From Vicinamibacteria bacterium (GTDB lineage: Bacteria > Acidobacteriota > Vicinamibacteria > Marinacidobacterales > SMYC01), in contig DASPGQ010000077.1 of the NCBI GenBank assembly GCA_035620555.1, positions 1 through 41,665 on the forward strand: a stretch of DNA of 41,665 bases, in the 5' to 3' direction. Below, piece by piece: positions 26,992 to 41,665 of this stretch. The notes under the pieces are model-generated. The model was not told the DNA's origin. It was given only the letters and a program-made list of their open reading frames with translations, and ran no database searches. Made by a program: the position numbers and the translations under genes. Each line of letters begins with the position of its first letter. The stretch's first letter is position 1.

Positions 26992-27768
26992 ATGAAGAAG
27001 TCATTTTTGATTGCCCCTCTAGCACTGACGGTCCTCGCCGCGGCTTGTGGCGGAGGGGGAGGGGCTTCCGAAAGCACGACCACCGCAGCAGCGCCGGCGC
27101 CGAAGGCCCCACCGGTCGACGCGGCCACCGCGGGAACGATCAGCGGAAAAGTGGCGTTCGAAGGTGAGCCACCCGCAGGAGAAACGATCCAGATGGCTGC
27201 CGACCCCAATTGCGCACGACTCCACTCGGAGCCGGTGAAGACTGAGTTCGTCGTGGTAGGGGAGGGTGGCGGTCTGGCCAATGTCTTCGTTCACATCAAG
27301 AGTGGTCTCCAGGGACGGAACTTTCCCCCACCGAGCGAGCCGGTGGTGCTCGACCAGCATGGTTGCACTTACGTGCCTCACGTCATCGGGATCCAGGTCG
27401 GCCAGACCCTCCAGATCCTGAACAGCGACGAGACGCTCCACAACATTCACGCGATGCCGAAGAACAACAAGGAGTTCAACATCGGCCAACCGGTCAAGGG
27501 ACTGAAGACCGACAAGGTATTCGACAACGTCGAGGTCATGATCCCGTTCAAGTGTGACGTGCACAAGTGGATGAACAGCTATGCCGGTGTGGTCGATCAC
27601 CCCTATTATGCGGTATCGAGCCAGGACGGAAGCTTCTCACTCGCGAACGTCCCCCCGGGAGACTATGTCGTCGAGGCCTGGCACGAGCGGTTCGGGACCA
27701 AGGAGATGAACGTCACCGTCACCGAGAAAGGCACGGCCGAAGCGAATTTTTCGTTCACCGCAGAGTAA
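26992..27768 (+). CDS. Cupredoxin-domain lipoprotein
   Basis: Encodes 258 residues. A lipoprotein signal ends in LAAAC (Cys19), followed by a Gly/Ala/Pro linker, so it is membrane-anchored outside the inner membrane. The body is beta-rich, with likely type-1 copper ligands in LHNIHAMP (H150 or H153) and CDVHKWM (C188, H191, M194), plus a carboxypeptidase-regulatory-like end (SFSLANVPPGDYVVEAWHE). This suggests a small blue-copper electron carrier or copper handler. The start is clear: ATG with GGAGG seven bases upstream. It converges with the respiratory operon, and a strong terminator follows. An electron-transfer link to the adjacent oxidase is inference. Confidence 0.85.
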   Translation: MKKSFLIAPLALTVLAAACGGGGGASESTTTAAAPAPKAPPVDAATAGTISGKVAFEGEPPAGETIQMAADPNCARLHSEPVKTEFVVVGEGGGLANVFVHIKSGLQGRNFPPPSEPVVLDQHGCTYVPHVIGIQVGQTLQILNSDETLHNIHAMPKNNKEFNIGQPVKGLKTDKVFDNVEVMIPFKCDVHKWMNSYAGVVDHPYYAVSSQDGSFSLANVPPGDYVVEAWHERFGTKEMNVTVTEKGTAEANFSFTAE

Positions 27769-27932: not shown

Positions 27933-28832
27933 TTAGCCTCCGACCTCCGCTGAGGCTACGTCTCGCGCGCTCACGGCTTCGGAAACGAATAGTACGAGGA
28001 GTATCCACAGGACGTTCGAGGCACCCAGGTGGAGGAGCTGCATCCAAACGGGCGCCATCAGCTTTACGTTGACCGCGCCCAGGGCGAGTTGCAGGGCGAA
28101 GACTCCCACCGCGAGGCGGCCATACCGGTTCGACCCAACCAGCCAGACGGCGACCACAACGACGAAGAAGCCGGCGATGGCTAGGGTGGGATGATAGGAG
28201 CGAGCTCTGATCAGGCTCGTGAGCACCGGTGATTCGTCGGGAGAGACTCCCGCCTGGAGCAGCAGCGTGTCTCCGAGCGCGGTCACTGCACCGCTCGCGC
28301 CGACGACCAGCACGGCGACGAGCGTCGCGCTCAAGAGCGCAATCCTCGAAGAGCTCTGGGGCAGGGCGCGATTTCCACCGATCCACCAGACGGTCATCGT
28401 GATCGCGGCGAGCAGCAAGAATGTGTTCGTCAGGTGAAGGGCCATCATATAGACGCGGGCTTCGGAGTCGTTCGCCCCCACCCACTCGAAACGGACGAGC
28501 CCGGCTCCGATGAGCGCCTCGGTGACGACGAAGAACAAAGACCAGCCAACTGCCTGTCGTGCAGGGTGTTTTGGCGGAAAGGCGCGGAAGACGGCTACGA
28601 CGACACCGAGCACGAACAGGCCCAGGAGCCCGCTCGTGATCCGATGGCCGAGCTCGATGAGGGTGTCTAGACGCGGCTCTCGCGGGATGACCTCACCATT
28701 GCAGAGCGGCCAGTGGCTGCCGCACCCGGCGCCAGAGCCGGTGGCGCGTACGAAGGCGCCCCAGAGAATGACGACAACGGTGTAGGCGAGCAGCCACCCG
28801 ACGACTCGAGGGAGACGGTGAGAACCTGTCAG
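27933..28832 (-). CDS. ctaA: Heme A synthase (COX15/CtaA), probable CTG start
   Basis: Encodes 299 residues, normal for CtaA, which oxidises the heme O methyl group to make heme A for the oxidase. Conserved histidines appear in ELGHRITSG (E60, H63), ALHLTNTF, YHPTLAIAG and LLHLGASN; the extracytoplasmic Cys pair is in GAGCGSHWPLCNG (C37, C44). The first standard start (GTG at 28613) would remove 73 residues including E60, H63 and the Cys pair. The homologous frame runs up to MTGSHRLPRVVGWLLAYT, where the only plausible start is CTG at 28832, in a CTGA overlap with the stop of the upstream gene. It is the last gene of the respiratory operon. Confidence 0.88.
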   Translation of the reverse strand: MTGSHRLPRVVGWLLAYTVVVILWGAFVRATGSGAGCGSHWPLCNGEVIPREPRLDTLIELGHRITSGLLGLFVLGVVVAVFRAFPPKHPARQAVGWSLFFVVTEALIGAGLVRFEWVGANDSEARVYMMALHLTNTFLLLAAITMTVWWIGGNRALPQSSSRIALLSATLVAVLVVGASGAVTALGDTLLLQAGVSPDESPVLTSLIRARSYHPTLAIAGFFVVVVAVWLVGSNRYGRLAVGVFALQLALGAVNVKLMAPVWMQLLHLGASNVLWILLVLFVSEAVSARDVASAEVGG

Positions 28833-29053
28833 GACGCGGGGTCGTCCGATCCTCGCCTCCTCCGATACCAGGCGACGGCGATCGAGCCGAAGACGAGATA
28901 GGGCATGCTCAACAGAAAGAGAATGCCGCGGTTGAATCCGGCGGCCAGCTCACCGTTCTGCTCGAGCGCGGTTCGGCACATGGCACATTGCGCGAGCGCG
29001 CTATCGACGACGACGAGGCAACCCAGGACGAGAAGGAGGGCCACTTTCTTCAT
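28829..29053 (-). CDS. Small CxxC membrane protein of the oxidase operon
   Basis: Encodes 74 residues. A signal segment (VALLLVLGCLVVVDSALA) is followed by QCAMCRTALEQNGEL, one transmembrane helix (GILFLLSMPYLVFGSIAVAW) and an Arg-rich end (YRRRRG), which predicts the CxxC outside the membrane and the tail inside. Similar small proteins occur beside cytochrome oxidase genes in related genomes as unnamed hypotheticals. A role in copper or heme delivery to the oxidase, or in disulfide chemistry, is inference. The ATG overlaps the subunit IV stop (ATGA), and its own stop overlaps the ctaA CTG, so all three are translationally coupled. Confidence 0.82.
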   Translation of the reverse strand: MKKVALLLVLGCLVVVDSALAQCAMCRTALEQNGELAAGFNRGILFLLSMPYLVFGSIAVAWYRRRRGSDDPAS

Positions 29054-29355
29054 TGGAACAACCGATGCGGCAGGATGTTACTACCGCCGTCATAGGCGGG
29101 GATTGCGAACATCAGGATGCTCGTCAGGAAGATCCCCACGAGCACGACCAGCATGAGGCCGGCTTTCTCGAAACGGAGGTGCATGTAGAAAAAGATGATG
29201 AGGCTCGCCTTGATGGCCGAGCCGACGAGGAGCATCAGCGTCTGCGGCACCTGGGATATCTGGCTCTCTCCGATGAAGATCATCGTGACGGTAACGACGA
29301 GGAGCACCACCCAGAGAATCCAGTAGCTCTTGTAGCTCGAAGCATGTTCCGACAT
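29050..29355 (-). CDS. Cytochrome c oxidase subunit IV-type protein
   Basis: Encodes 101 residues with three membrane helices: YWILWVVLLVVTVTMIFIGE, LMLLVGSAIKASLIIFFYMH and GLMLVVLVGIFLTSILMFAI. The segment KASLIIFFYMHLRFEKAGLM is typical of the bacterial COX4/caa3-type subunit IV family (CoxD/CtaF), a small accessory subunit of heme-copper oxidases. The start is ATG 29355 with GGAGG nine bases upstream; an upstream start would add 33 residues without homology. It lies 19 bases after the second subunit III gene. Confidence 0.9.
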   Translation of the reverse strand: MSEHASSYKSYWILWVVLLVVTVTMIFIGESQISQVPQTLMLLVGSAIKASLIIFFYMHLRFEKAGLMLVVLVGIFLTSILMFAIPAYDGGSNILPHRLFQ

Positions 29356-29374
29356 AGCGTGGTTCCTCCCTCGC

Positions 29375-29989
29375 TCAGACGAGGTAAAAGAGCGCAAAGA
29401 CGAAGACCCAAACGAGGTCGACGAAGTGCCAATACAGCCCGGCGTTCTCGACACCTTGCGCCGAGTACTTTCCCATTGCCGAGCGGATGGCGACGATGAG
29501 AAGAATGGTGACTCCGGTCGTCACGTGCATACCGTGGAATCCGGTGATGATGAAAAAGCTCGCGCTGAAGTGAGGCACACCCCAGGGATTGCTGGTGAGC
29601 CGCGCTCCCTCGTGAATGAAGTGGCTCCATTCGTAGGCCTGCATTCCCAGGAAGGAGAATCCGCCCAGGATGGTGAGCCACAAGAAGAGCGTCACGTGCT
29701 TCTTGTTTCCCGCCATGGCCGCGGCGACGGCGCAGGCCATCGTGGCACTGCTGGTTATGAGCGTGAACGTCATCAAGGTGATGAAGTTCATGTCGAAGGC
29801 AAGGGTCTGGTCCGGCCAGGTCGGGCTCTGGGAGCGGATGACTCCATAGGACACCAGAAGCCCGGCAAAGAGCAACGCGTCGGTGACGATGAAGATCCAC
29901 ATCATGAGCTTCTGCCAGCTGACGTCGAAGGGGCTGACCCCACCCGTCCACGGCGAAGCGACTGATGCGGAAGCTCCGGTATCACTCAT
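29375..29989 (-). CDS. coxC: Cytochrome c oxidase subunit III (second copy)
   Basis: Encodes 204 residues with five membrane helices, the short bacterial form of subunit III. Conserved features include MWIFIVTDALLFAGLL, FIITGFHGMHVTTGV and the C-terminal YWHFVDLVWVFVFALFYL. Subunit III stabilises the catalytic core and assists proton uptake. GGAGG lies seven bases before the ATG. It is 12 bases downstream of a different subunit III gene; the two are clearly diverged, so they are not a recent duplication. Which one is in the mature oxidase cannot be told from sequence. Confidence 0.93.
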   Translation of the reverse strand: MSDTGASASVASPWTGGVSPFDVSWQKLMMWIFIVTDALLFAGLLVSYGVIRSQSPTWPDQTLAFDMNFITLMTFTLITSSATMACAVAAAMAGNKKHVTLFLWLTILGGFSFLGMQAYEWSHFIHEGARLTSNPWGVPHFSASFFIITGFHGMHVTTGVTILLIVAIRSAMGKYSAQGVENAGLYWHFVDLVWVFVFALFYLV

Positions 29990-30001: not shown

Positions 30002-30640
30002 CTACAGGTAGAACAACACGACGAAAAGATAGAGCCAGAGCACGTCGACGAAATGCCAGTAGGTCGCGGCGAGCTCGGGCGAGCTCGACTCACCCGGCGT
30101 CAGGCTCCGCCTCGTCGCCAGGACGAGGACATAGAGGATCACCAAGACTCCCGCGACTAGATGCACTCCATGAACCCCGGTCAGGACGTAGAAGAAGGAG
30201 CTGTGCGGATGGCTCGTGAGGTAGACGCCTGAAGTCGCGAGCGCCTTCCAGGCGAACACCTGTCCCGCGAGGAAGATCACGCCGAGCGCGGCGGTTACGA
30301 GTAGCCATTTGCGAAACGAGACCGGCCAGAAGCTCACGAAGCGGCGGCGGGCAATCTCCATGCTCACGCTCGAAGCGATGAGCACCAGGCTGTTCGGGTA
30401 GAGGATGGGAGGTACGACGAGTGGGACCCAGTCGTCACCCGAGCTTCGCACGAGATAGGCGCTGGTAAAGGCGGCAAACAGCATGGTGACAGAGCCGAGC
30501 GCGATCCACAGACCGAGTTTGGCGGTCTCGACCTGCCGGCGCGAAGGCTCTCCCGGGCGTCCGTCGCCGCCGAATCCGGGCTCGAGGACGTCCAGTCCGC
30601 CTCCGCCACTCGCGTTCGGTCGTGCCAGAGTTTCCGCCAT
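30002..30640 (-). CDS. Cytochrome c oxidase subunit III (first copy)
   Basis: Encodes 212 residues. After a hydrophilic Gly-rich N-terminus of about 40 residues come five membrane helices with LGLWIALGSVTMLFAAFTSA, SSFFYVLTGVHGVHLVAGV and the C-terminal YWHFVDVLWLYLFVVLFYL, the subunit III pattern. It differs from the adjacent copy over most of its length, especially the N-terminus. The ATG comes one base after the ctaB stop (TGAG then ATG), implying coupled translation. Paired subunit III genes are known in several caa3/aa3-type operons; a heterodimeric role is inference. Confidence 0.9.
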   Translation of the reverse strand: MAETLARPNASGGGGLDVLEPGFGGDGRPGEPSRRQVETAKLGLWIALGSVTMLFAAFTSAYLVRSSGDDWVPLVVPPILYPNSLVLIASSVSMEIARRRFVSFWPVSFRKWLLVTAALGVIFLAGQVFAWKALATSGVYLTSHPHSSFFYVLTGVHGVHLVAGVLVILYVLVLATRRSLTPGESSSPELAATYWHFVDVLWLYLFVVLFYL

Positions 30641-30641
30641 C

Positions 30642-31529
30642 TCAGTAAAACGTCTGGTTGAACGCCGCCAGAGCGAGCATCACCGGCAGATAGAACAGCG
30701 AAACCGCCAGAAGGCTCCCCGCGAGCCGTCGCTCGGTTCCGTCGCCGAAACGAAAGGCTGCCGAGAGAAACAAAGCCCCGAGTGCCAGAGCCCCCACGAG
30801 GTAGACGCGCCCGAGCAAGTCGAGAGCGGGCGGAACGAGGCTCAAGGTGACCAGCGCGAGCGTGGCCGAAACGGTCAGGAGTCGAGCCGCCGATCCCTTG
30901 GGGAGAGCCCGATAGCCCACCCGTTCGTAGTCGTCTCGATAGACCGCGGCAATGGCCCAGGTATGGGGGAACTGCCACATGAAAAGGATGCCGAAGAGAC
31001 AGAAGGCCAGCGTGCCGAGCTCACCTGACGCCGCGCTGAACCCCATGAGCGTGGGCATCGCTCCGGCCACGGCACCAGGAACGGTGGCCCAGGCGGTACG
31101 AGGTTTCATCGGCGTGTACAGGAGAACGTAGGTGCCCAGAGCCAGAAGAGCGAGAAGAGCCGTCAGCCACCCGCCGGTCAGGAGCAGGGCGACGACGCCC
31201 ACGACCGACATGGCGCCGGCCGCCGCCGTGGCTTCGCCGACCGGGATACGGCCGGTGGGCACGGGTCGATTCCTCGTGCGGTCCATTCTCGCGTCCGGTC
31301 CGCGCTCCAGCACCTGATTGAACGCGTTCGCACCGGCAACGACGAGAAACGTGCCGAAGGTAAACGCGAGAAGCGAGCCGAGGGCGATCTCCGCCGAAGC
31401 GAGCCAGTACCCGACTACGCCGGACACGACCACCATCGCCGATAGACGCAACTTCACGAGCTGGAGATAGTCCCGCACCGACAACGAGAGCCGGGCGATC
31501 GACCAGGTCGAGGCCGTCGACGAAAGCAT
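30642..31529 (-). CDS. ctaB: Protoheme IX farnesyltransferase (heme O synthase)
   Basis: Encodes 295 residues, a UbiA-type prenyltransferase that attaches farnesyl to heme B to make heme O. The first Asp-rich motif is in NAFNQVLERGPDARMDRTRN then RPVPTG, and the second loop is YRDDYERVGYRALP; KLRLSAMVVVSG and YTPMKPRT also fit the family. About nine membrane helices are visible. I chose ATG 31529, preceded by AGAGG, over a start at 31571 that would overlap the coxA coding region. It lies eight bases after coxA and works with ctaA at the operon end to supply heme A. Confidence 0.95.
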   Translation of the reverse strand: MLSSTASTWSIARLSLSVRDYLQLVKLRLSAMVVVSGVVGYWLASAEIALGSLLAFTFGTFLVVAGANAFNQVLERGPDARMDRTRNRPVPTGRIPVGEATAAAGAMSVVGVVALLLTGGWLTALLALLALGTYVLLYTPMKPRTAWATVPGAVAGAMPTLMGFSAASGELGTLAFCLFGILFMWQFPHTWAIAAVYRDDYERVGYRALPKGSAARLLTVSATLALVTLSLVPPALDLLGRVYLVGALALGALFLSAAFRFGDGTERRLAGSLLAVSLFYLPVMLALAAFNQTFY

Positions 31530-31537
31530 CGATCCTC

Positions 31538-33307
31538 TTAGCCCCGGGCTTTCACCCGGGCGGGCTGCCACTGGGGCGTGAACTCCCGGTCTTCATCGGG
31601 ATTGTTGTAATCGTACGGCCAGCGATGTACTTCGGGAATCTCTCCTTCCCAATTGCCATGTCCCGGGGGGGACGGCGCCGACCACTCGAGCCCGTTCGAC
31701 TCCCAGGGATTGCTCTCGGCGCACTTCCTGCCCTTGGCCATGCTCCAGAAGTAATTGGCAACGAAAATGAGCTGCGCGGCGCCCAGAATGAAAGCGCTCA
31801 CGGTGATGAAAGTGTTCACCGGTTGGAGCGGCTTGAGGTAGTCATAAGTGTTCGGATCGTAGATGCGGCGCATCATTCCCGCGATCCCGAGGTAATGCAT
31901 GGGGAAGAACGTCCCGTAGTAGGCGAGAAATGTGAGCCAGAAGTGGATCTTCCCCAGTCCCTCGTTCATGAAACGGCCGAACATCTTGGGAAACCAGTAG
32001 TACACCGCCGCCAGAGCACCGAAGAGACCGGCTCCCGCCATGATGAAGTGAAAGTGCGCGACGACGAAGTAGGTGTCGTGGAGCTGGATGTCGGTGGCGT
32101 TCGTGCCGAGAAAAAGGCCCGTGAGGCCGCCGGTCACGAAGAGCGACACGATGCCCAGCGCGAAGAGCATGGGCGTCGTGAACCGGATCTTCGCTTTCCA
32201 GAGCGTCGAGAGCCAGTTGAATGTCTTCACCGCCGAGGGAATGGCGATGGCGAGGGTGGTCATGACGAAGACGCTTCCCAGAAAGGGGCTCATTCCGGAA
32301 ACGAACATATGGTGCCCCCACACGAGGAAGCTCAAGATACCGATGGCAATGATCGCATAGACCATCGATCGATAACCGAAGATGGGCCTTCGGCTGAATG
32401 TCGCGATGATGTCCGAGGCGAACCCCATGGCGGGCAGCATGATGATGTAGACCTCGGGGTGGCCGAGGAACCAGAACAGGTGCTGCCAGAGAAGGGGGGT
32501 TCCGCCCTCGTGAGCGAAGAGCTGGTCGCCGATGTAGATTCCCGCCGGCAGGAAGAAGCTCGTTCCCAGCCCGCGGTCGAACAAGAGAAGGATGGCCCCG
32601 GCGGCGAGCGCGGGAAAGCTCAGGAGGCCAAGAACGCCGACGACGAACTGCGCCCAGGTCGTCAGCGGCAGTCTCATCATCTTCATGCCCTTGGTGCGGA
32701 GGTTCAGGATGGTCACGACGAAATTGAGACCGCCCATGGTGAACGAGGCGATGAAGAAGACCATGCCCACGATCCAGAGGGTCTGCCCCGCTCCCGAGCC
32801 GGGAATCGCCGAGCGGATCGCGGATAGAGGCGGGTAAGCGGTCCATCCCGAAGCCGCGGCGCCTCCCTCGACGAGAAACGAGATCAAGATGATGATGGCC
32901 CCGGGCAGCACCGTCCAGAACGAGAGCATGTTGAGAAACGGGAACGCCATGTCTCGGGCTCCGATCTGGAGAGGGATGAGGAAGTTTCCGAACCCGCTCA
33001 CCGGGGCCAGCGATAGCACGAAGAACACCATGATGGTTCCGTGCATCGTAAAGAGCATGACGTAGAACTCCGGCGTCATGACCCCAGAAGCCATCCCGGT
33101 GGGAAAGAAGGTCTCGAGACTGGGCCACAGGGTTCCGGGCCAGCCGAGCTGCAGTCGGATGAGCATCGCGAGAATGCCCCCGACGAGGGCCATCATCATG
33201 GCAAGCGTCAGGTACTGTTTCCCGATCATCTTGTGATCGAAGCTGAAGAGGTACGTGCTTACGAAACCCTGCTTGCCATGGCCGTGGTCGTCATGACCTT
33301 CGCTCAT
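31538..33307 (-). CDS. coxA: Cytochrome c oxidase subunit I (aa3-type, A1-like)
   Basis: Encodes 589 residues with about 12 membrane helices. Low-spin heme ligands are H89 and H420; the high-spin heme ligand is H418. The CuB site is H283, H332 and H333, with Y287 in GHPEVY for the His-Tyr crosslink. D119 (D-channel entry), E285 in HPEVY and K361 (K-channel) are all present, so it is an A1-type proton-pumping oxidase. The N-terminus is His-rich (SEGHDDHGHGKQG), a possible metal-binding tail. AGGAGA lies before the ATG. The C-terminal 50 residues are hydrophilic with NPWESNGLEW and EVHRWPYDYNN, typical of the subfamily. Confidence 0.97.
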   Translation of the reverse strand: MSEGHDDHGHGKQGFVSTYLFSFDHKMIGKQYLTLAMMMALVGGILAMLIRLQLGWPGTLWPSLETFFPTGMASGVMTPEFYVMLFTMHGTIMVFFVLSLAPVSGFGNFLIPLQIGARDMAFPFLNMLSFWTVLPGAIIILISFLVEGGAAASGWTAYPPLSAIRSAIPGSGAGQTLWIVGMVFFIASFTMGGLNFVVTILNLRTKGMKMMRLPLTTWAQFVVGVLGLLSFPALAAGAILLLFDRGLGTSFFLPAGIYIGDQLFAHEGGTPLLWQHLFWFLGHPEVYIIMLPAMGFASDIIATFSRRPIFGYRSMVYAIIAIGILSFLVWGHHMFVSGMSPFLGSVFVMTTLAIAIPSAVKTFNWLSTLWKAKIRFTTPMLFALGIVSLFVTGGLTGLFLGTNATDIQLHDTYFVVAHFHFIMAGAGLFGALAAVYYWFPKMFGRFMNEGLGKIHFWLTFLAYYGTFFPMHYLGIAGMMRRIYDPNTYDYLKPLQPVNTFITVSAFILGAAQLIFVANYFWSMAKGRKCAESNPWESNGLEWSAPSPPGHGNWEGEIPEVHRWPYDYNNPDEDREFTPQWQPARVKARG

Positions 33308-33338: not shown

Positions 33339-34160
33339 TCAATTCTGGGCGGCCTGCTCCGCGAGCCAGGCGTCGTAATCGGACGCGCTCATGACCGTGA
33401 GGAACGCCCGCATCCGGTAATGACCGAGACCGCACAGCTCGGCACATGCGATCTCGTACTCCCCCGTCTTGATCGGGGTGAAGGTGACCGAGGTCTCCAT
33501 GCCCGGCACCAAGTCCTGCTTCACTCGAAAATTGGGAAGAAAGAAGGCATGCTGGACGTCCTTGGAACGAAGCCTCAGATGCGCTACCCGATCGACGGGC
33601 AGCACGAGCTGGTTCGTGCGGACGAAGTCATCGGCCGAGGCCGGATCGGTCTCGTCGATCCCCAGCGGATTCTCGAGCGAGTACAACTCCGGTTGAAACC
33701 CCCCGATTGCCCCGTCGGGACCGGGATAGCGAAAGTCCCACTGGAACTGCGCCCCGACCGCCTCGATGACTATCGCGTCGGGAGGAACGTCCGTCGACGC
33801 CTTGACGTCACCCCAGATCACTAGCCCGGATACGACGATGGGGACGAGGACGGCGGCGGTGCCAAGGGTCCAGCCCACTTCCAACCTGTGGCTGTCGTGC
33901 CAATAACTTCCGGCCGCGTCGTCGCGATGACGAAAACGGAAGATGAAAGTCCCGAGAATGAGTTGCACGATGATGTAGGCGACACCACTGATCGCCAGGA
34001 TCACGTAGTACAAGGTGTCCTGCGACGAGCGGTCGGAGGCGAGGTCGGGCAACCCGTAAACAAAGAAGAAGACGACCGAAACGAGAACGATGCCCCAGAT
34101 GCTCAGAGCCATCGCCGTTCCGTGGCTAACGTAGGGTCTGACTTTTTCTTCTTCTGCCAT
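33339..34160 (-). CDS. coxB: Cytochrome c oxidase subunit II (CuA subunit)
   Basis: Encodes 273 residues: two membrane helices (about 14-36 and 48-73), then a periplasmic cupredoxin domain. The CuA ligands are H204, C239, E241, C243, H247 and M250 in CAELCGLGHYRM, with a docking aromatic region near W141. There is no fused cytochrome c domain, unlike many caa3 oxidases, so electrons must come from a separate donor, here probably the octaheme protein encoded just upstream. I chose ATG 34160 with AGGA six bases upstream; a start at 34265 would run into the octaheme gene. It lies 31 bases before coxA. Confidence 0.96.
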   Translation of the reverse strand: MAEEEKVRPYVSHGTAMALSIWGIVLVSVVFFFVYGLPDLASDRSSQDTLYYVILAISGVAYIIVQLILGTFIFRFRHRDDAAGSYWHDSHRLEVGWTLGTAAVLVPIVVSGLVIWGDVKASTDVPPDAIVIEAVGAQFQWDFRYPGPDGAIGGFQPELYSLENPLGIDETDPASADDFVRTNQLVLPVDRVAHLRLRSKDVQHAFFLPNFRVKQDLVPGMETSVTFTPIKTGEYEIACAELCGLGHYRMRAFLTVMSASDYDAWLAEQAAQN

Positions 34161-34177
34161 TGATTGTCCTCGATTCG

Positions 34178-34194
34178 CGGCCGCGCTTCGGCCG
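34178..34194 (-). repeat. Hairpin between the octaheme cytochrome gene and coxB
   Basis: CGGCCG (34178-34183) and CGGCCG (34189-34194) pair across five bases, and flanking ATTC/GAAT extend the stem with one bulge. It lies in the only 49-base gap between the bc-like and oxidase halves of the operon and could affect mRNA processing or relative expression. Confidence 0.4.
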
Positions 34195-34209
34195 AATGAT
34201 ATCTCTTCC

Positions 34210-37032
34210 TCAGCGCGTGTAGTGCATGATGTAGGCGGCGACGGCGCGCATCTGCGCCTCGGCATCCCCCCCGAGAACGTCCGGTAGTGGCGTCACACGG
34301 TTGCCGGCGTCGTCCACGGGCCAAAACTGAGGCATCTGGGTGCCGGGTGTGATCGCCTGGGGATCCCTCATCCAGTTCACGACCCACTCCTCGCGCAGAC
34401 GCTCGCGGGAAAGCCGGAAGCTCGGCGCGAGCTGAGAGGCCTCCATGGTGCCAGCGGCGGCGGCGATATGGCAGCGCTCGCATTGCAGGCGAACGAGAAG
34501 GCGGTCGCCCGTACGGAGGAGCTCTGGATCGGGTTGTTGCTCCTCCGCCGTTTCGAAAGGCTGCGTTCCCTCCATCGCCATGAATCCCTGCACCAGCGTG
34601 TTCGCCTCGTCATCGCTGAAGTGGAAGGTCGGCATGCGCGCATTCAGCCAGAAACGCACTTCGGTGGGCGCCTTCAGGAACTGGAACAGCCAATCGGCCT
34701 GAGTCCGGGCGCCCTGGGTGTTGAGGTTCGGGGGTCTGAAACCGGAATCCTCGATCGTCTGATAGATACCACCCCCGAAGCCGTCAACGAGGTGGCAGCC
34801 GCGACAGTTGTACTCGTGAATGAGTCGACGCGCCCGGGCCCCATAGGCCTCGTTGGCACTCAGGTTCTTGACCGCCACCCGTGGTAGCTCTTCTCTGACC
34901 TGAGAGAGAACCCGGCGCACGATGGCGTCGATCTCCTCTTCGGTGAAATCGAAGTAACCCATGCGGAGCTTTTCCGGAGGGCTCTTGACCTTGCCCTCGT
35001 CGTAGCTCCGTGGAGCACGAAGCTTCTGTTCCAGCCAGGCTTTTCGGGTGTGCTCGATATCCACATAGCCGAAATCGAGCCGGGTGACCATCTTCGAGCC
35101 CCAGGTGGAGAGGTCGACTCCGATCTTCTGAGCGTTCTCGAACCCCTCGATGTCGTGGCACCCAAAACACCCGTAGCGAAGGATGAGTCTCTCGCCCGAG
35201 TAGAGCGTCTTCTCCTCGGTCGACATCTGGGATATCCGCTCTTCGGCCTGAGCGAGCGGAAGACCCGATCGGAGAAACTCGAGCGTGATCTCATCGAGCG
35301 CCGCACTCTCGACCTCGGGGACCGGTAGCTGTTCGAAGCCCTCGTTTCGAAGGCTCATGAGATAGGCAGTGATGTCGGCCGCCTCTCGATCGGTGAGCCT
35401 CAGATCGGGCATGAAGGTCTCTTCCCAGTAATGTCGCGGGTTCTTGACCCAGTTGAAAAGGAACTCCCGCTTGACCTTGCTTCCCACACCCGCCAGACTC
35501 GGCCCCTTCGTACGGTACCAGTCGACGCTGGTGTTCTCCGCGTTCTCGGCGATGTCGAAGGCGGTCTCGTCGGTGATATGGCAGCCAAGGCAGCCCGCGG
35601 ACTCGATCAGATTACGGCCCCGATCCGGGTCCCCCGCGGGCACGGGCGTGTAGCTCAAAGGCTTGGCCTTGTCGAATACGTAGGCGACGATCGCGGCGAC
35701 TTCGGTCCGGTTGCGAGCCCCGATGTCAGAATCGAGATTGTTGTCGAGGTTCCAGAACCGCGGCATGTAGGTCGACTTCTTGAAGCTCTTGGGATCCTTT
35801 ACCCATCGCGCCGCCCACTCGGGTGTCGTCTTTGCCACGATGTGCCCGAGGTTCGGGCCTACTTTGCGCCGGTCCTCGAAGCCTTCGGTGTTGTGGCAGC
35901 CCCAGCATCCCGCCGTCTCGTAGAGGTTACGGCTCTCGTTGAACTTCTCGGCCCCGGGAAGGAGGACCTGATCCGCGTGGCACTTGAGGCAGCCGGCCTC
36001 GGCGAATCCATTCGGATACATGGGTTTGTCCCAGTAATGGTCCTCTTTCCATCCGTAACGGGTCTCCCATTCGTGCTGTTGTTCCTCGGTCTGGGGCGTG
36101 TGGTTCACGCCCACGAACGTCGTCGCCCGACCGCGGCCTTCGTGGCAGGAGGTGCAGCCGAAGCTGTCGCGTGGATGCTTCGACTCGGGCGCGACGTAGA
36201 GATCGAGGTCGGGATGCGTCCGGAAGGGTTGCGGCGCGTCGGCATAGTCGAGATTGTCGATTCCCAGGTGACAGGTCTGGCATCGGTCGATGCGGGGAAC
36301 CTGAGTGAAATTCAGTTCCTCGGTCACGTTCGCAACCAGAACCTGTCGAATCTCGATGCTGGGGTCGATGAAGTCGACGACGGGAAGGTTTCGGAACGTG
36401 TTGGGAAAATTCCGGGCGATGGAGTCGAGCTTGCGGCGCAGGAGAGTTGCTTCCTGGGTCAGAGCCTCCTTCTGAGAGTTCAGCTCGGTCACTCGGGCTC
36501 GAAGCTCGCGCAACGACCGCTGCACCTGTGTCCGGTCGTACTCGATGGCGAGGCGAGCTTCGCGCGCGCCGATGAACTCGCCTTCCAGCGCGCGGAACTC
36601 TTCGTCGGAAACGGCCTTGCCCAGCGGAGCGCTCTCGCCTTCCTCGTGATAGAACTTCTTCGAGTCGTACACCGCCTTGAGCTCGCGCTCTCGAACATCG
36701 GCGAGCGTCCATTGATTGTCGAGGGCCTCGAACTGCTCTTCCAGCTCTCGAATATCGGCCTGCCTTGCCTCGAGCTCCTGGTTCGCCGCGGCTAGATCGC
36801 TCTCGACTCGCTCGAGCTCGCGTTGATCCACCTCCCCCTCGGCTTCTTGAATCTGTTCCCGCGTCGTTTGCCGCTCGAGCTCGTAGAACTCGCGTTGATA
36901 GCGCTTCCATTCGCGGGAGTAATCGTCCCAGACGAGCCAGATGGTCGTCAGGAAGAGCGCTATCGCCGAAATGCCGAAGAGGACGTTGAGCGCCGGAATG
37001 TCGTGCGCATGTCCTGGAGCGGGTTTCGCCAC
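34210..37032 (-). CDS. Membrane-anchored coiled-coil octaheme cytochrome c
   Basis: Encodes 940 residues. One membrane helix (about 14-36) is followed by a long charged coiled coil (about 37-205). Eight heme-binding CxxCH motifs follow at 251, 293, 348, 376, 481, 622, 743 and 851. Hemes 4-8 sit in repeated class-I-like domains, each with a likely axial Met downstream (YMPRFW M423, FMPDLR M541, RMGYFDF M691, RMPTFHF M800, QMPQFWP M900); hemes 1-3 lie in a more compact section. It probably takes the place of cytochrome c1 and soluble cytochrome c. The start is GTG with GGAG six bases upstream. It lies between the cytochrome b genes and coxB. Confidence 0.93.
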   Translation of the reverse strand: MAKPAPGHAHDIPALNVLFGISAIALFLTTIWLVWDDYSREWKRYQREFYELERQTTREQIQEAEGEVDQRELERVESDLAAANQELEARQADIRELEEQFEALDNQWTLADVRERELKAVYDSKKFYHEEGESAPLGKAVSDEEFRALEGEFIGAREARLAIEYDRTQVQRSLRELRARVTELNSQKEALTQEATLLRRKLDSIARNFPNTFRNLPVVDFIDPSIEIRQVLVANVTEELNFTQVPRIDRCQTCHLGIDNLDYADAPQPFRTHPDLDLYVAPESKHPRDSFGCTSCHEGRGRATTFVGVNHTPQTEEQQHEWETRYGWKEDHYWDKPMYPNGFAEAGCLKCHADQVLLPGAEKFNESRNLYETAGCWGCHNTEGFEDRRKVGPNLGHIVAKTTPEWAARWVKDPKSFKKSTYMPRFWNLDNNLDSDIGARNRTEVAAIVAYVFDKAKPLSYTPVPAGDPDRGRNLIESAGCLGCHITDETAFDIAENAENTSVDWYRTKGPSLAGVGSKVKREFLFNWVKNPRHYWEETFMPDLRLTDREAADITAYLMSLRNEGFEQLPVPEVESAALDEITLEFLRSGLPLAQAEERISQMSTEEKTLYSGERLILRYGCFGCHDIEGFENAQKIGVDLSTWGSKMVTRLDFGYVDIEHTRKAWLEQKLRAPRSYDEGKVKSPPEKLRMGYFDFTEEEIDAIVRRVLSQVREELPRVAVKNLSANEAYGARARRLIHEYNCRGCHLVDGFGGGIYQTIEDSGFRPPNLNTQGARTQADWLFQFLKAPTEVRFWLNARMPTFHFSDDEANTLVQGFMAMEGTQPFETAEEQQPDPELLRTGDRLLVRLQCERCHIAAAAGTMEASQLAPSFRLSRERLREEWVVNWMRDPQAITPGTQMPQFWPVDDAGNRVTPLPDVLGGDAEAQMRAVAAYIMHYTR

Positions 37033-37054: not shown

Positions 37055-38161
37055 CTAGATATTGAAGAAGATCTCGGGGAAAGCGACGATGTACTTCAGG
37101 TTGAACGCCCAGCGAAGATACATCTTGATGGGAAGGCTGAGCATCAGGAGAAACAGCACCACCGCGATGTAATAACGTGGAGGCCCCATTTTCACCAGAT
37201 AGTGGTTGAGGCTCGCCCACCGCAAGAAACCCGGCAACTTCTCCTTCGGTTTGGACAGAAGCCAGGGAAGCACGCCGATGTAGAACAGAACGAGAAGGAC
37301 CCCGAGCCATTCCCGGACGAGCGGGTTTCGAGGAAGCGGCCGGTTGAGAAACTTCACCCAGAAGAAGTCCGAGACGTGCACGTTCAGCAGGGGCTCGACG
37401 CGATGCTGGTCCCAGTACTCATAGGGGCCAAAGAAGTTCCAGTTCGGCCCGCGCAGAAACGTTCCCGAGATGACGAGCAGCATCCAGAGCACCAGATAGC
37501 CGTAGAGAAAGATTCCGATCTCGACCCGTCTCTCCCGGAAGGTGAAATAGCCGTTCCCCTTGGGGTTCGTATCCAGGTACGGGATGGCCATGAGGCCGAT
37601 GATGATGAACGTGGGAAACACGACCCCGGCGAGCCAGGGGTCGAAGTAGACGAGCATCTCCTGGAGCCCGAGGAAGTACCAGGGCGCCTTCGACGGATTG
37701 GGTGAGTCCGCCGGATTCGCCGGCTGCTCCAGTGGCGCCGGCAAGAGGATCGACCACGCCATCAGAACGATCCCGAGAATGATCATGCAGAGCATCTCGG
37801 TGTAGACGAGATCGGGCCAGACCCAGACTTTGTCTTCCTCCTGTTTCTCGGCTACCGGCTCTCCCCTCTCGATCCTCTTGTCGTTCTCGACACCCTGATA
37901 CATCGCATACCAGGTGGTGAACCCGACCAGGTACAACACCAGGGTGATGGGAACGTTATCGGGCTTCGCCACGATGAGATAGAAATCCGGGTCGAACATG
38001 CTCAGGACGTAGAACACCGTCAGCGCGCCGAATCCAATGATCGCGTTTCTTTTGGTCCAGATCCGCGGATAGCGCAAGGAAACGAGGAAACCCACGGTCA
38101 CTAGAGTGAAGAGCACCGTGGGCCCCGACATCCAGTTGATTAGATTCTTGACGGACTCCAT
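37055..38161 (-). CDS. Cytochrome b C-terminal half (subunit IV-like)
   Basis: Encodes 368 residues, larger than plant subunit IV (about 160). The family core is NPADSPNPSKAPWYFLGLQE (149-168), aligning with the PEWY loop at the quinol oxidation site, but here reading APWY (A159 to Y162), as seen in some menaquinol-oxidising relatives; E168 follows. At least eight hydrophobic segments are present: three precede the core and several follow, beyond the usual three-helix subunit IV. It should pair with the b6-like half encoded upstream to build the quinol site. The ATG has only a weak ribosome site. It lies 59 bases after the cytochrome b6-like gene. Confidence 0.9.
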   Translation of the reverse strand: MESVKNLINWMSGPTVLFTLVTVGFLVSLRYPRIWTKRNAIIGFGALTVFYVLSMFDPDFYLIVAKPDNVPITLVLYLVGFTTWYAMYQGVENDKRIERGEPVAEKQEEDKVWVWPDLVYTEMLCMIILGIVLMAWSILLPAPLEQPANPADSPNPSKAPWYFLGLQEMLVYFDPWLAGVVFPTFIIIGLMAIPYLDTNPKGNGYFTFRERRVEIGIFLYGYLVLWMLLVISGTFLRGPNWNFFGPYEYWDQHRVEPLLNVHVSDFFWVKFLNRPLPRNPLVREWLGVLLVLFYIGVLPWLLSKPKEKLPGFLRWASLNHYLVKMGPPRYYIAVVLFLLMLSLPIKMYLRWAFNLKYIVAFPEIFFNI

Positions 38162-38220: not shown

Positions 38221-39018
38221 TCACATCGGGCCGGAAATGCCACCGTCTTTGCGGACACGCCAGAAATGAACGGCCATCAGGAAAGCGGCGGCGAGCGGCA
38301 GCCCCACGCAGTGGAGCACGTAGAAGCGGAGCAGGGTGTTCTCCCCCACGCTTCTAGCGCCGAGCAGAACGAAGCGCGCGTCGCTTCCCGAGTTGATGAT
38401 GTTGATGTCGCCTATCTTGAGAGCGGCCGACAAGGGTCCCTCGGTGCCCGCGAGCGGAGTCGCCCGCGCCATGTTCGAACCTACGGTGATGGCCCAGATG
38501 GCGAGCTGATCCCAGGGAAGAAGATAGCCGGTGAACGACAGGAGGAGGGTGAGCACCAAGAGGATGACGCCCACTCCCCAGTTGAACTCACGGGGCGGTT
38601 TGTAGGAGCCGGTCATGAATACCCGGAACATGTGCAGCCATACCGTGATCACCATGGCATGGGCACCCCACCGGTGGAGCTCGCGCATGACGCCGAGGGG
38701 CACGTGCTCGCCCAGATCGATGATGTCGGCGTAGGCGTACTCGACCGTCGGCCGATAATAGAACATCAGGAGCAGCCCGGTGAAGGTGAGTACCAGGAAC
38801 AGAAAGAAGGTGATGCCGCCCATACACCAGGTGTAGCGGAGCTTGATGCCTGCCTTTCGCGACTTGACCGGGTGGAGATGCAGGAACACGTTCGACATCA
38901 TCACCAGGACCCGATTGCGGTTGCTGTTGACGGCCCCGTGGCGGAAGATGGACTTCCACACCTGAGATTCAGTCAGCGCGTTCCATGCGCTCGAAAAAGC
39001 GTTCATGACCTTCTGCAC
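38221..39018 (-). CDS. Cytochrome b N-terminal half (b6 type)
   Basis: Encodes 265 residues with four core membrane helices and four heme-b ligands: H115 and H129 (13 residues between), H236 and H251 (14 between). The 14-residue spacing is the b6 type. The stretch [13 protein letters not shown] ... [11 protein letters not shown] aligns with the b6 region whose Cys covalently holds the extra heme c(n); here it is C65. Together with the separate C-terminal half this is a b6f/menaquinol-type split cytochrome b. The start is GTG at 39018 with AGGAG eight bases upstream; ATG at 39006 is less well placed. It lies 24 bases after the Rieske gene. Confidence 0.94.
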
Positions 39019-39042: not shown

Positions 39043-39603
39043 TCAAGCCATTGGCAAGAAGGATGCCGGGTCGCTCCACTGTCCCGCTTCCTGCTTGAAG
39101 GTGCGTCCGATGTCGATGAGAACTTGACCGTCCTCGGCCAGGCTGATGGCGACGCGCTCCAGTGGACGCGGCGCGGGCCCTTCGAAGTTGATGCCGCTCA
39201 TGTAGAAACCGCTCCCGTGGCAGGGACACTTGAACTTGTTCTCCGCCTCGAGCCAGTTGGGAGTGCATCCGAGATGCGTGCAAATCGCCAGGAGCGAATA
39301 CATCTCGGTCTCGTTTCGCACGACCCAGACGCGGAACTTCTCCTTGAACCGCGTATCGACCACTCCGACCGCGAAGTCGCTGGGGAAGCCCACCTTGAAC
39401 GTGGAAGGCGGCTCGGTCAACACGTTGGGAAACATGAACCGCCCCATGGCGGTGAGTCCGGCGGCGGTCGAGGCGGCGAAAAATGTCCAGGCGAGAGCGA
39501 GCCAGTTGAACTGTCGTCTCGTGACTTCCTTCGTCTCTTTTCTTGAGGGCTTGGCGGGTTTCTCTTCGACCGGTTCGGCTTGTTCTTGTTCGTCCTTGGC
39601 CAT
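39043..39603 (-). CDS. Rieske iron-sulfur protein
   Basis: Encodes 186 residues. A Lys/Glu-rich N-terminus leads to TRRQFNWLALAW and a membrane anchor (about 33-55), resembling the uncleaved Tat-type signal of Rieske proteins. The cluster motifs CTHLGC (C108, H110, C113) and CPCHGSGF (C126, C128, H129) provide the 2Fe-2S ligands and the disulfide. It takes one electron from quinol at the site formed by the cytochrome b subunits and passes it to the c-type heme partner. It is the first gene of the operon. ATG at 39603 with AGG eight bases upstream. Confidence 0.96.
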   Translation of the reverse strand: MAKDEQEQAEPVEEKPAKPSRKETKEVTRRQFNWLALAWTFFAASTAAGLTAMGRFMFPNVLTEPPSTFKVGFPSDFAVGVVDTRFKEKFRVWVVRNETEMYSLLAICTHLGCTPNWLEAENKFKCPCHGSGFYMSGINFEGPAPRPLERVAISLAEDGQVLIDIGRTFKQEAGQWSDPASFLPMA

Positions 39604-39751: not shown

Positions 39752-40636
39752 TTATGGCGTCGGTTTTTTCTGACCCTCGAGCGCGTCGATCGCCGTTCTC
39801 CTGATTCCCACGTGGGGGTCCGAGTCAGAGATGGCGCGGAGCCTCTCGGTGAGCCGGTCGCCGCCGAGTCTCGCCGACGCTTTGATCGCGCTTTCCATGG
39901 TCAGAAGCCTCTGAGCGTCGTCCATGGTGTCGATACCGGCGAGGAGCTCGCGGTCCAACATCTCCAGCAACTTCGCTTCGCCCGAGCGGTCTCCTAGCTG
40001 GGCGAGAGCAATCGCCGCGTTCCAGGAGGCATCTCGATCGAGATCCGACAGAGCCACCTGAAGACGAGGGATGGCGGCCTCGTCCCCGATGGCGCCGAGC
40101 GCGTAGATCGCCATTTTCCTCGCTCCGACGTCCTCATCGCCCACGCGGGCGACCAGTGCTCCCACCGCGCTGCGATCGCCGATGTTGCCGAGCGCCCAGC
40201 TGGCATAGAGACGAGTCGTGGCGTCTTTGTCCGACAAGGCCTCGATGAGCACCGGCGTCGCCAACTCATCGCCGAGATTCCCGAGAGACAGGGCGAGGTA
40301 GTGCCGGACGCGGGGGTCGTCGCCTTGCGCCTTCTCGAAGGCGTCGATCATCTCGGGGACCAGGCCCTCCATCCGGCTCCTCTCGGAGTCCAGCGTGATG
40401 ATCTTGGAGAGCTCGAAAGCGGCTTGCCAACGGCGACTCGCGCTTCCGGCCCGAATCTCGTTGAGATAGTCGACACTCGTCTTCTCGTCGGAGACGAGCC
40501 AGGCGAAGAAAAAGAAGATGCCCACACAGATGGCGACCACGACAGCGGGGACTACGAAGAACTGGACGAGCGTTCGTCCGAAGCTCAGATCCTCTTCGAT
40601 CCCGACGTCGTTTTCCTTGGCCATGGAACGGGGCAT
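39752..40636 (-). CDS. Membrane-anchored HEAT-repeat protein
   Basis: Encodes 294 residues. One membrane helix (VVPAVVVAICVGIFFFFAWL, about 30-50) is followed by HEAT/PBS-lyase-type repeats: RVRHYLALSLGNLGDELATP, TTRLYASWALGNIGDRSAVG, GARKMAIYALGAIGDEAAIP and ASWNAAIALAQLGDRSGEAK. Such solenoids bind other proteins; exposure may be on either side. I chose ATG 40636, just after the ABC gene stop, with GAG five bases upstream; ATG 40621 is the alternative. It lies between an ABC exporter and the respiratory operon, but the operon promoter lies downstream of it, so it is probably co-transcribed with the ABC gene. Confidence 0.85.
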   Translation of the reverse strand: MPRSMAKENDVGIEEDLSFGRTLVQFFVVPAVVVAICVGIFFFFAWLVSDEKTSVDYLNEIRAGSASRRWQAAFELSKIITLDSERSRMEGLVPEMIDAFEKAQGDDPRVRHYLALSLGNLGDELATPVLIEALSDKDATTRLYASWALGNIGDRSAVGALVARVGDEDVGARKMAIYALGAIGDEAAIPRLQVALSDLDRDASWNAAIALAQLGDRSGEAKLLEMLDRELLAGIDTMDDAQRLLTMESAIKASARLGGDRLTERLRAISDSDPHVGIRRTAIDALEGQKKPTP

Positions 40637-40637
40637 G

Positions 40638-41665
40638 TTATCTCGCGCCCCGTCCCGGTTCAACGACCGCCGAGGCCATTTCCTGGTCCTTGTATTGGAG
40701 CTGGTAGAGACGATGGTAGATGCCGTGCTGGGCGAGGAGCTCCTGATGGGTCCCGATCTCTCGGATGCGGCCCTTGTGGAGCACGACGATGCGGTCGGCC
40801 CGTTGAATCGTCGAAAGACGATGAGCGATCACGATACTGGTGCGATTTGCCAGCAGCTTCTCGAGGGCCTCCCGGACGAGGATCTCGGTGTGGGTGTCCA
40901 CGCTCGACGTCGCTTCGTCGAGAACGAGTATCTCCGGGTCGTGCACCAGCGCCCGCGCAAAGGACACGAGCTGCTTCTGACCCGAGGAGAGTGCCGACCC
41001 CCGCTCCCTCACCTCGGTCTCGAGCCCTCGCGGCAGCGTCTTCAGGAACTCGTTCAGGTTGACCGCCGCCGCCGCATCGGCAACGGCCTCGTCGGTGATG
41101 TCGCGATCCCCGAGACGAATGTTCGACGCAATCGTGCCCGAGAAGAGGTGGACGTCCTGGAGCACCATGCCGAAGCGACGCCTCAAGGCCGTCAGCTCCC
41201 AGTCGCGAACATCCAACCCGTCGACAACGACCCGCCCGCGTTGAACGTCGTAGAACCTGAGCAGGAGACTCGTGAGGGTCGTTTTGCCGGCGCCGGTATG
41301 GCCTACGATGGCGACCGTCTCTCCACGACCCACCTGGAGCTCGATGTTCTGGAGGACCCAGTTCTCGCCCTTGTAAGCGAACCACACATCCTCGAAACCG
41401 AGCGTTCCCGCACCCGAGCTCGCCCGGGGACTCCCCTCGGGTGAAGAAACCGAGACCTCGGTGTCCAGCAGCTTGAAAATCCGCTCCGAGGAAGCCATCG
41501 CCCCCTGGAGAATGTTGAATTTTTCAGATAGATCGCTGATGGGCCGATAGAAGCTCTCCGAGTACTGAATGAACGCGACGAGGCCTCCCAGAGTGAGCGT
41601 TCCGAGAAGGATCTGACCACCGCCGTACCAGATGACGAGACCGATCGCGATCGCCCCGAGCACCT
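40638..41665 (-). CDS. ABC exporter (membrane domain plus ATPase), 5' end cut by window edge
   Basis: About 342 C-terminal residues are present. The visible part starts in the last membrane helices, with GGLVAFIQYSESFYRPISDL typical of MsbA/MdlB-type half transporters. A complete ATPase domain follows: Walker A GHTGAGKTT, Q-loop MVLQDVHLFSGTI, signature LSSGQKQ, Walker B ILVLDEATSSVD and switch His in IVIAHRLST. These exporters work as dimers in the inner membrane; substrates range from lipids to drugs and cannot be told here. Its stop is one base before the HEAT gene start, so the two are co-expressed. The N-terminal transmembrane domain is beyond the window. Confidence 0.95.
   Translation of the reverse strand, partial: VLGAIAIGLVIWYGGGQILLGTLTLGGLVAFIQYSESFYRPISDLSEKFNILQGAMASSERIFKLLDTEVSVSSPEGSPRASSGAGTLGFEDVWFAYKGENWVLQNIELQVGRGETVAIVGHTGAGKTTLTSLLLRFYDVQRGRVVVDGLDVRDWELTALRRRFGMVLQDVHLFSGTIASNIRLGDRDITDEAVADAAAAVNLNEFLKTLPRGLETEVRERGSALSSGQKQLVSFARALVHDPEILVLDEATSSVDTHTEILVREALEKLLANRTSIVIAHRLSTIQRADRIVVLHKGRIREIGTHQELLAQHGIYHRLYQLQYKDQEMASAVVEPGRGAR

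Follow-up and report, generated by a model that had tools for sequence, protein, structure and literature searches.

The octaheme cytochrome encoded at 34,210..37,032 on the minus strand of the window, i.e. the whole 41,665-nucleotide stretch of a Vicinamibacteria contig (DASPGQ010000077.1; Acidobacteriota) that was analyzed, very probably serves as the c-type subunit of a Rieske/cytochrome b complex of the b6f kind, where it stands in for cytochrome f or c1. Judged by homology, the octaheme adds a new member to a family that is already known. The variant of interest is the coupling of this family to a conserved cupredoxin, which is sometimes fused to CoxB, and to a CuA oxidase. The statement as a whole, namely that the octaheme is the c subunit of the bc complex and that the cupredoxin carries electrons from it to CuA, is assigned a probability of about 0.6.

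Gene cluster and kinship with known bc complexes

The octaheme gene is a stop-free frame of 940 codons with a GTG start, and it lies in the middle of a cluster on the minus strand. On its upstream side are the genes for a Rieske 2Fe-2S protein (39,043..39,603; CTHLGC...CPCHGS), a b6-like N-terminal half of cytochrome b (38,221..39,018), and a 368-residue C-terminal half resembling subunit IV (37,055..38,161), which carries a conserved APWYF at the presumed quinol site. On its downstream side are the genes for CoxB (33,339..34,265; CuA ligands H239, C274, C278, H282, and M285), CoxA, which is subunit I of a heme-copper oxidase (31,538..33,307), the heme o synthase CtaB (30,642..31,571), two copies of a CoxC-like subunit III (30,002..30,640 and 29,375..29,989), and CoxD, a prokaryotic oxidase subunit IV (29,050..29,454); the genes from CoxA to CoxD were identified by Pfam and NCBIfam models. 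From Rieske to CoxD the genes share a strand and are never more than 60 bases apart, and a COX15-like CtaA (27,933..28,613, minus strand), whose true start is probably further upstream, follows about 440 bases beyond. The true start of CoxB is probably at 34,160 rather than 34,265, because its length then matches that of its relatives; the octaheme and CoxB genes therefore probably do not overlap. The Pfam and NCBIfam models bear out the order given in an earlier, sequence-only reading of this DNA (Rieske, N-terminal half of cytochrome b, C-terminal half or subunit IV, octaheme, CoxB, CoxA), and its claim that the cluster contains neither a cytochrome c1 gene nor a soluble cytochrome c gene also holds.

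A gene for a HEAT-repeat protein (39,752..40,663, minus strand) is located directly upstream of the Rieske gene, and 72 of 87 octaheme loci have such a gene ahead of Rieske. We know of no role for HEAT-repeat proteins in bc complexes; the protein is possibly an assembly factor.

The split cytochrome b most resembles that of the b6f complex. Its N-terminal half has the heme b ligands His 115, 129, 236, and 251, and a Cys65 within TWCMGG (83% conserved), a context that we take to resemble the heme c_n Cys site of b6. Alignments showed that the b6-type heme ligands are conserved and that the ligand motifs of the Rieske and CuA centers are canonical. In other words, the split b, the heme ligands, the Cys for heme c_n, and the Rieske type are shared with cytochrome b6f, whereas the window lacks cytochrome f and has the octaheme in that place; no cluster protein scanned matched a cytochrome f model of Pfam or NCBIfam. 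The cluster differs from cytochrome bc1 in its want of a cytochrome c1. The c1 model (PF02167) matched above its cut-off in none of 43 genomes, including that of the window, which rules out a c1 encoded elsewhere in this genome. The actinobacterial bcc-aa3 system shares with the window the absence of c1 and the position of bc genes beside an aa3 oxidase, but it has a diheme QcrC and an unsplit b, whereas the window has eight hemes and a split b, and its octaheme family is not confined to oxidase-linked loci. The QcrB and QcrA models scored far below their cut-offs on the cluster proteins. The nearest NCBIfam model to the N-terminal half of cytochrome b is ExtP, and its score of 264.9 bits falls short of the curated cut-off of 290 for the Geobacter Ext b-type family.

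Heme ligands and architecture of the octaheme subunit

The eight CxxCH motifs of the octaheme are at residues 251, 293, 348, 376, 481, 622, 743, and 851, and all eight are conserved in 113 of 113 full-length homologues, as are His 273, 286, and 311. Met 423, 541, 691, and 800 are likewise invariant in all 113, and Met 900 is present in 111. The sequence-only reading had described five repeat domains with a likely axial Met in MPxF-like motifs; these were recovered as class-I cytochrome c domains, for which M423, M541, M691, M800, and M900 are the candidate ligands. Since the pattern is conserved in essentially all 113 full-length homologues, it is not due to chance. Hemes 1-3 were found to form a separate N-terminal part with the three invariant extra His, which corrects the earlier description. 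Because the spare His and Met residues are conserved, three bis-His hemes (CxxCH 251, 293, and 348, with H273, H286, and H311) and five His/Met hemes (CxxCH 376, 481, 622, 743, and 851, with M423, M541, M691, M800, and M900) are predicted. M338 is not conserved and was rejected as a heme ligand. A signature of the octaheme type is now defined as eight CxxCH plus three extra His plus five Met. A clade of shorter octahemes (~600-880 residues; L057, L058, L062-L064, L066, and L068) is also encoded 3' of Rieske and cytochrome b; in these loci a CNVHPEM-type cupredoxin is found some kb upstream, and Met900 is mostly replaced.

The single membrane helix of the earlier description was recovered both as a hydrophobic helix in the sequence (residues ~13-35) and in an AlphaFold2 model (residues 12-38). 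The model was built from 20 sequences and is of moderate quality (mean pLDDT 76), with residues 219-310 poorly modelled. The membrane helix is followed by about 170 residues that had been described as a coiled coil. SMC coiled-coil models match residues 37-209. Its form looks like a helical hairpin of ~165 residues (41-205) rather than one rod, because the AlphaFold2 model has two long helices, one at 41-131 with breaks near 68 and 90, and one at 143-205. A comparison of the octaheme with solved structures returned weak matches to single domains alone (best E 0.025), and a fold search with the model returned coiled-coil matches alone, none of them significant (best E 0.15).

Distribution and described relatives

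The octaheme family is widespread. A sample of 247 Acidobacteriota genomes contained 38 genomes besides that of the window with a near full-length match (E < 1e-140; counted by hand from the match table). Relatives in the order to which the window belongs are 62-76% identical to its octaheme. The best 80 loci listed, which set a lower bound on the range, come from Acidobacteriota, Omnitrophota, Planctomycetota, Marinimicrobia, Latescibacterota, Hydrogenedentota, Gemmatimonadota, Spirochaetota, and Bdellovibrionota, according to the names given by the submitters. Among 112 distinct octahemes longer than 880 residues, 90 had enough upstream sequence to be judged, and 87 of these 90, from many phyla, have Rieske and the N- and C-terminal halves of cytochrome b just upstream on the same strand. 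The remaining three lack a recognized upstream bc set, which is either absent or divergent. The expected conservation of the Rieske-b-b-octaheme order in relatives was thus found. The octaheme type would be the complex III of many uncultured lineages, in which general family libraries show loose cytochrome c domains only.

Relatives of this complex have been described. The Nitrospina gracilis genome, reported in 2013, encodes a Rieske protein and a split b6-type cytochrome b, and the sole c subunit gene that goes with them is for an atypical octaheme cytochrome c; the structure of this operon is reported to be shared by Kuenenia and Methylomirabilis (PMC3578206). These features are common to the window as well, and the window adds to them an aa3 oxidase run, the HEAT-repeat gene, and the cupredoxin, with Nitrospina and Methylomirabilis compared by their published description. 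In the Kuenenia cluster Kustd1480-1485, a hexa- or octaheme subunit replaces cytochrome f, and in an AlphaFold3 model the long helices of Kustd1485 reach halfway around the complex (PMC12954380). A collinear large octaheme with a membrane helix and long helices, a b6-like b, and a subunit IV-like protein are shared between this cluster and the window. The anammox cluster differs in that it has an NAD(P) oxidoreductase and no oxidase, whereas no NAD(P) oxidoreductase was found among the cluster genes of the window, and the identity between the two octahemes is 27%.

Further evidence of kinship comes from anammox genomes found via the hydrazine synthase family. The octaheme profile matched in 25 of 25 such genomes, mostly in frames of ~950 residues. 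One of them (L250) is probably Kuenenia from its hydrazine synthase and cluster content; the cluster encodes Rieske, cytochrome b, an Fe-S domain-containing pyridine-nucleotide oxidoreductase, a subunit IV-like protein, and a 948-residue octaheme. This octaheme aligns end to end with that of the window (27% identity, E 4e-113). The end-to-end homology together with the matching cluster makes the window octaheme a member of the known anammox/Nitrospina-type family. In two other genomes with hydrazine synthase (L253 and L255), the genes near an octaheme encode a cupredoxin, a subunit like that of cytochrome bd, a cytochrome with an ethylbenzene dehydrogenase domain, and a relative of the octaheme with four hemes; neither Rieske nor cytochrome b adjoins this octaheme.

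Linkage to oxidase genes is narrower than linkage to bc genes. Of the 82 loci that have 5 kb or more of sequence downstream of the octaheme, 24 have CoxA or CoxB within 5 kb and 58 have neither. CoxB directly follows the octaheme in seven loci and in the window, and these eight make up one clade (SH-aLRT 100 in a quick tree) that belongs to the order of the window. In the sister clade of this order (L036, L042, and L088), a cupredoxin comes next and no oxidase is in view. Homologues ~40-45% identical to the window octaheme were found away from oxidase genes and still with bc genes, and homologues away from oxidase genes are an outcome that the sequence-only reading had itself named as refuting it. 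As for its question whether the order Rieske-b-b-octaheme-CoxBA is conserved, the CoxB adjacency is confined to one order; therefore, no general supercomplex is to be read from it. Nor is there support for the view that an octaheme between b and CoxB defines a distinct type of supercomplex, given the 58 of 82 loci above and the earlier descriptions of the complex (PMC3578206, PMC12954380). In a Planctomycetota bin (L086, 11,988-13,213), two genes without a Pfam match separate the octaheme from the cupredoxin and CoxA genes, one for a multi-helix protein and one for a small membrane protein with a single heme.

A cupredoxin that travels with the octaheme

Just past the oxidase genes of the window is a gene that was missing from the earlier description. 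It encodes a lipoprotein-like cupredoxin with a C-terminal CarboxypepD_reg domain (26,992..27,768, plus strand). A lipobox-like AAAC occurs close to the start, and the gene is convergent with CtaA, from which its 3' end is 164 bases away. It is outside the oxidase operon because it is on the opposite strand. In many loci, the gene that follows the octaheme is of this kind: ~240-290 codons, HN[IV]H followed by C-x2-H-x2-M, and a C-terminal CarboxypepD_reg. The residues His150, Cys188, His191, and Met194 of the window protein are invariant in 38 sequences. Searched against the PDB, a profile of the family matched a blue-copper protein at E 7e-7, a copper nitrite reductase in its cupredoxin domain at 1e-6, and amicyanin at 8e-5, and an AlphaFold2 model (pLDDT 91) had amicyanin, plastocyanin, and NirK as its best PDB folds (E ~1e-5 to 1e-4). 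By its modelled fold and its His, Cys, His, and Met copper ligands, the protein is a type-1 cupredoxin, and copper binding is predicted. The gene that lies between octaheme and CoxB in other loci was also considered as an SCO copper chaperone, and this was ruled out by alignment and Pfam, which gave the cupredoxin motif and CarboxypepD_reg.

The association of this cupredoxin with octaheme and oxidase recurs. In 39 of 105 loci its gene comes directly 3' of the octaheme, and 23 of the 24 oxidase-linked octahemes have it in their locus. Four Omnitrophota loci (L085, L092, L096, and L111) encode it as an N-terminal fusion with CoxB, a single chain that combines the type-1 copper domain, CarboxypepD_reg, the membrane part of CoxB, and the CuA domain. 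In the Acidobacteriota sample, each of the 38 genomes that have a full-length octaheme also has a cupredoxin match, as do 101 of the 209 that lack one (Fisher p 4e-11; a hand count that ignores shared descent). The family is common also in genomes without an octaheme, and in other Acidobacteriota without a full-length octaheme the cupredoxin is found beside CoxA or CtaA/CtaB.

Blue-copper carriers between a bc-like complex and an oxidase are known in archaea, namely sulfocyanin in the SoxM system of Sulfolobus and halocyanin in Natronomonas (PMC3062577), and some haloarchaea have halocyanin joined in one protein with IIa, a small subunit of the oxidase (PMC3128077). These systems share with the present proposal a blue-copper protein in that position, but they are archaeal and have no octaheme; the likeness drawn here is one of role. 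A literature search that was thin on subscription journals found no paper linking this cupredoxin to octaheme complexes. The conserved, sometimes CoxB-fused cupredoxin offers a testable answer to how an octaheme complex feeds an O2-reducing oxidase without a cytochrome c.

Proposed route of electrons to the oxidase

How would electrons reach CuA? The best-supported route leads from quinol to Rieske, octaheme, cupredoxin, and CuA. Menaquinol (the quinone type is assumed) would be oxidized at the split cytochrome b, and the Rieske protein would hand one electron to the octaheme, which would collect and distribute electrons over its three bis-His and five His/Met hemes. For the hairpin, a clamp around the bc complex, as was modelled for the anammox relative, is the most likely role; the distance-setting role given to the coiled coil in the sequence-only reading is conjectural. 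As far as the octaheme, the route draws on family knowledge and conserved gene order. In the aerobic genome of the window, the octaheme would most probably pass electrons to the lipid-anchored blue-copper protein (26,992-27,768), which in turn would reduce the CuA center of the aa3-type oxidase encoded alongside. This step is indicated by the genetic linkage, by the fusion to CoxB, and by the conserved ligands. Counting against it are other donors in the genome, the position of the cupredoxin gene on the opposite strand, and the many octaheme loci without an oxidase or cupredoxin nearby.

One obvious model from the gene order of the window is that the octaheme is an electron wire that docks on CoxB and passes electrons directly to CuA in a permanent III-IV supercomplex, to which the cupredoxin is incidental. 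The wire proposed in the sequence-only reading survives in its first part, as a c-type acceptor instead of c1 is very probable, but a direct wire to CuA is unsupported and on balance unlikely. CoxB is the next gene in 8 of 8 octahemes examined in the order of the window, eight hemes could bridge a long distance, and actinobacterial bcc-aa3 supercomplexes provide a precedent (PMC7931247, PMC4505504). However, those eight are one clade, the CoxB adjacency is a derived trait of one order whose sister clade (L036, L042, and L088) has the cupredoxin next, and most homologue loci are away from oxidases. A direct transfer from octaheme to CuA is also not needed, because the cupredoxin accompanies octaheme and oxidase and is fused to CoxB in Omnitrophota. 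The same fusion, which makes the cupredoxin a permanent domain of CoxB, and the ligands and fold of type-1 electron carriers argue against the view that the cupredoxin carries no electrons and instead serves CuA/CuB as a copper chaperone or in their assembly. Such a role would agree with its extra CarboxypepD_reg domain and with its place beside CtaA/CtaB in several genomes, and it is considered improbable.

A somewhat stronger, still tentative, candidate is that the octaheme is a branch point serving several periplasmic acceptors (soluble cytochromes c, other oxidases, nitrogen-oxide reductases), among which the adjacent aa3 oxidase is only one. Family members without oxidases, including those of anammox genomes with an NAD(P) oxidoreductase in the cluster, agree with it, as do the four heme-copper oxidase loci and several small cytochromes c of the window's own genome; the tight run of oxidase and bc genes in the order of the window speaks against it. 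A branch point is compatible with the preferred route through the cupredoxin. The boldest version of that route holds that several phyla have replaced c1 and soluble cytochrome c by an octaheme bc complex and an amicyanin-like cupredoxin, free or fused to CoxB, with a permanent octaheme-cupredoxin-CuA supercomplex in the order of the window; this version is doubtful.

Other oxidases and donors in the genome

One of the four heme-copper oxidase loci of the genome is cut by a contig end. A second aa3-like oxidase set is present on contig C188, a CoxB-cytochrome c fusion oxidase on C517, and at least three small monoheme cytochromes c are encoded (C725, C457, and C720). The small cytochromes c and the fusion oxidase mean that donors other than the octaheme and cupredoxin exist, and with these donors and oxidases an exclusive service of the adjacent aa3 oxidase cannot be claimed. 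An NrfD match on C237 was unconvincing as an alternative complex III (ACIII), as it is an Fe-S/NrfD fusion by peptidase and amidase genes on a short contig. A separate cluster on C411 (L197, 7,330-12,745), near which no Rieske gene was recognized, encodes a cytochrome b that is not split, an octaheme resembling HAO (PF13447), and a CoxB/CoxA pair of ba3-like type.
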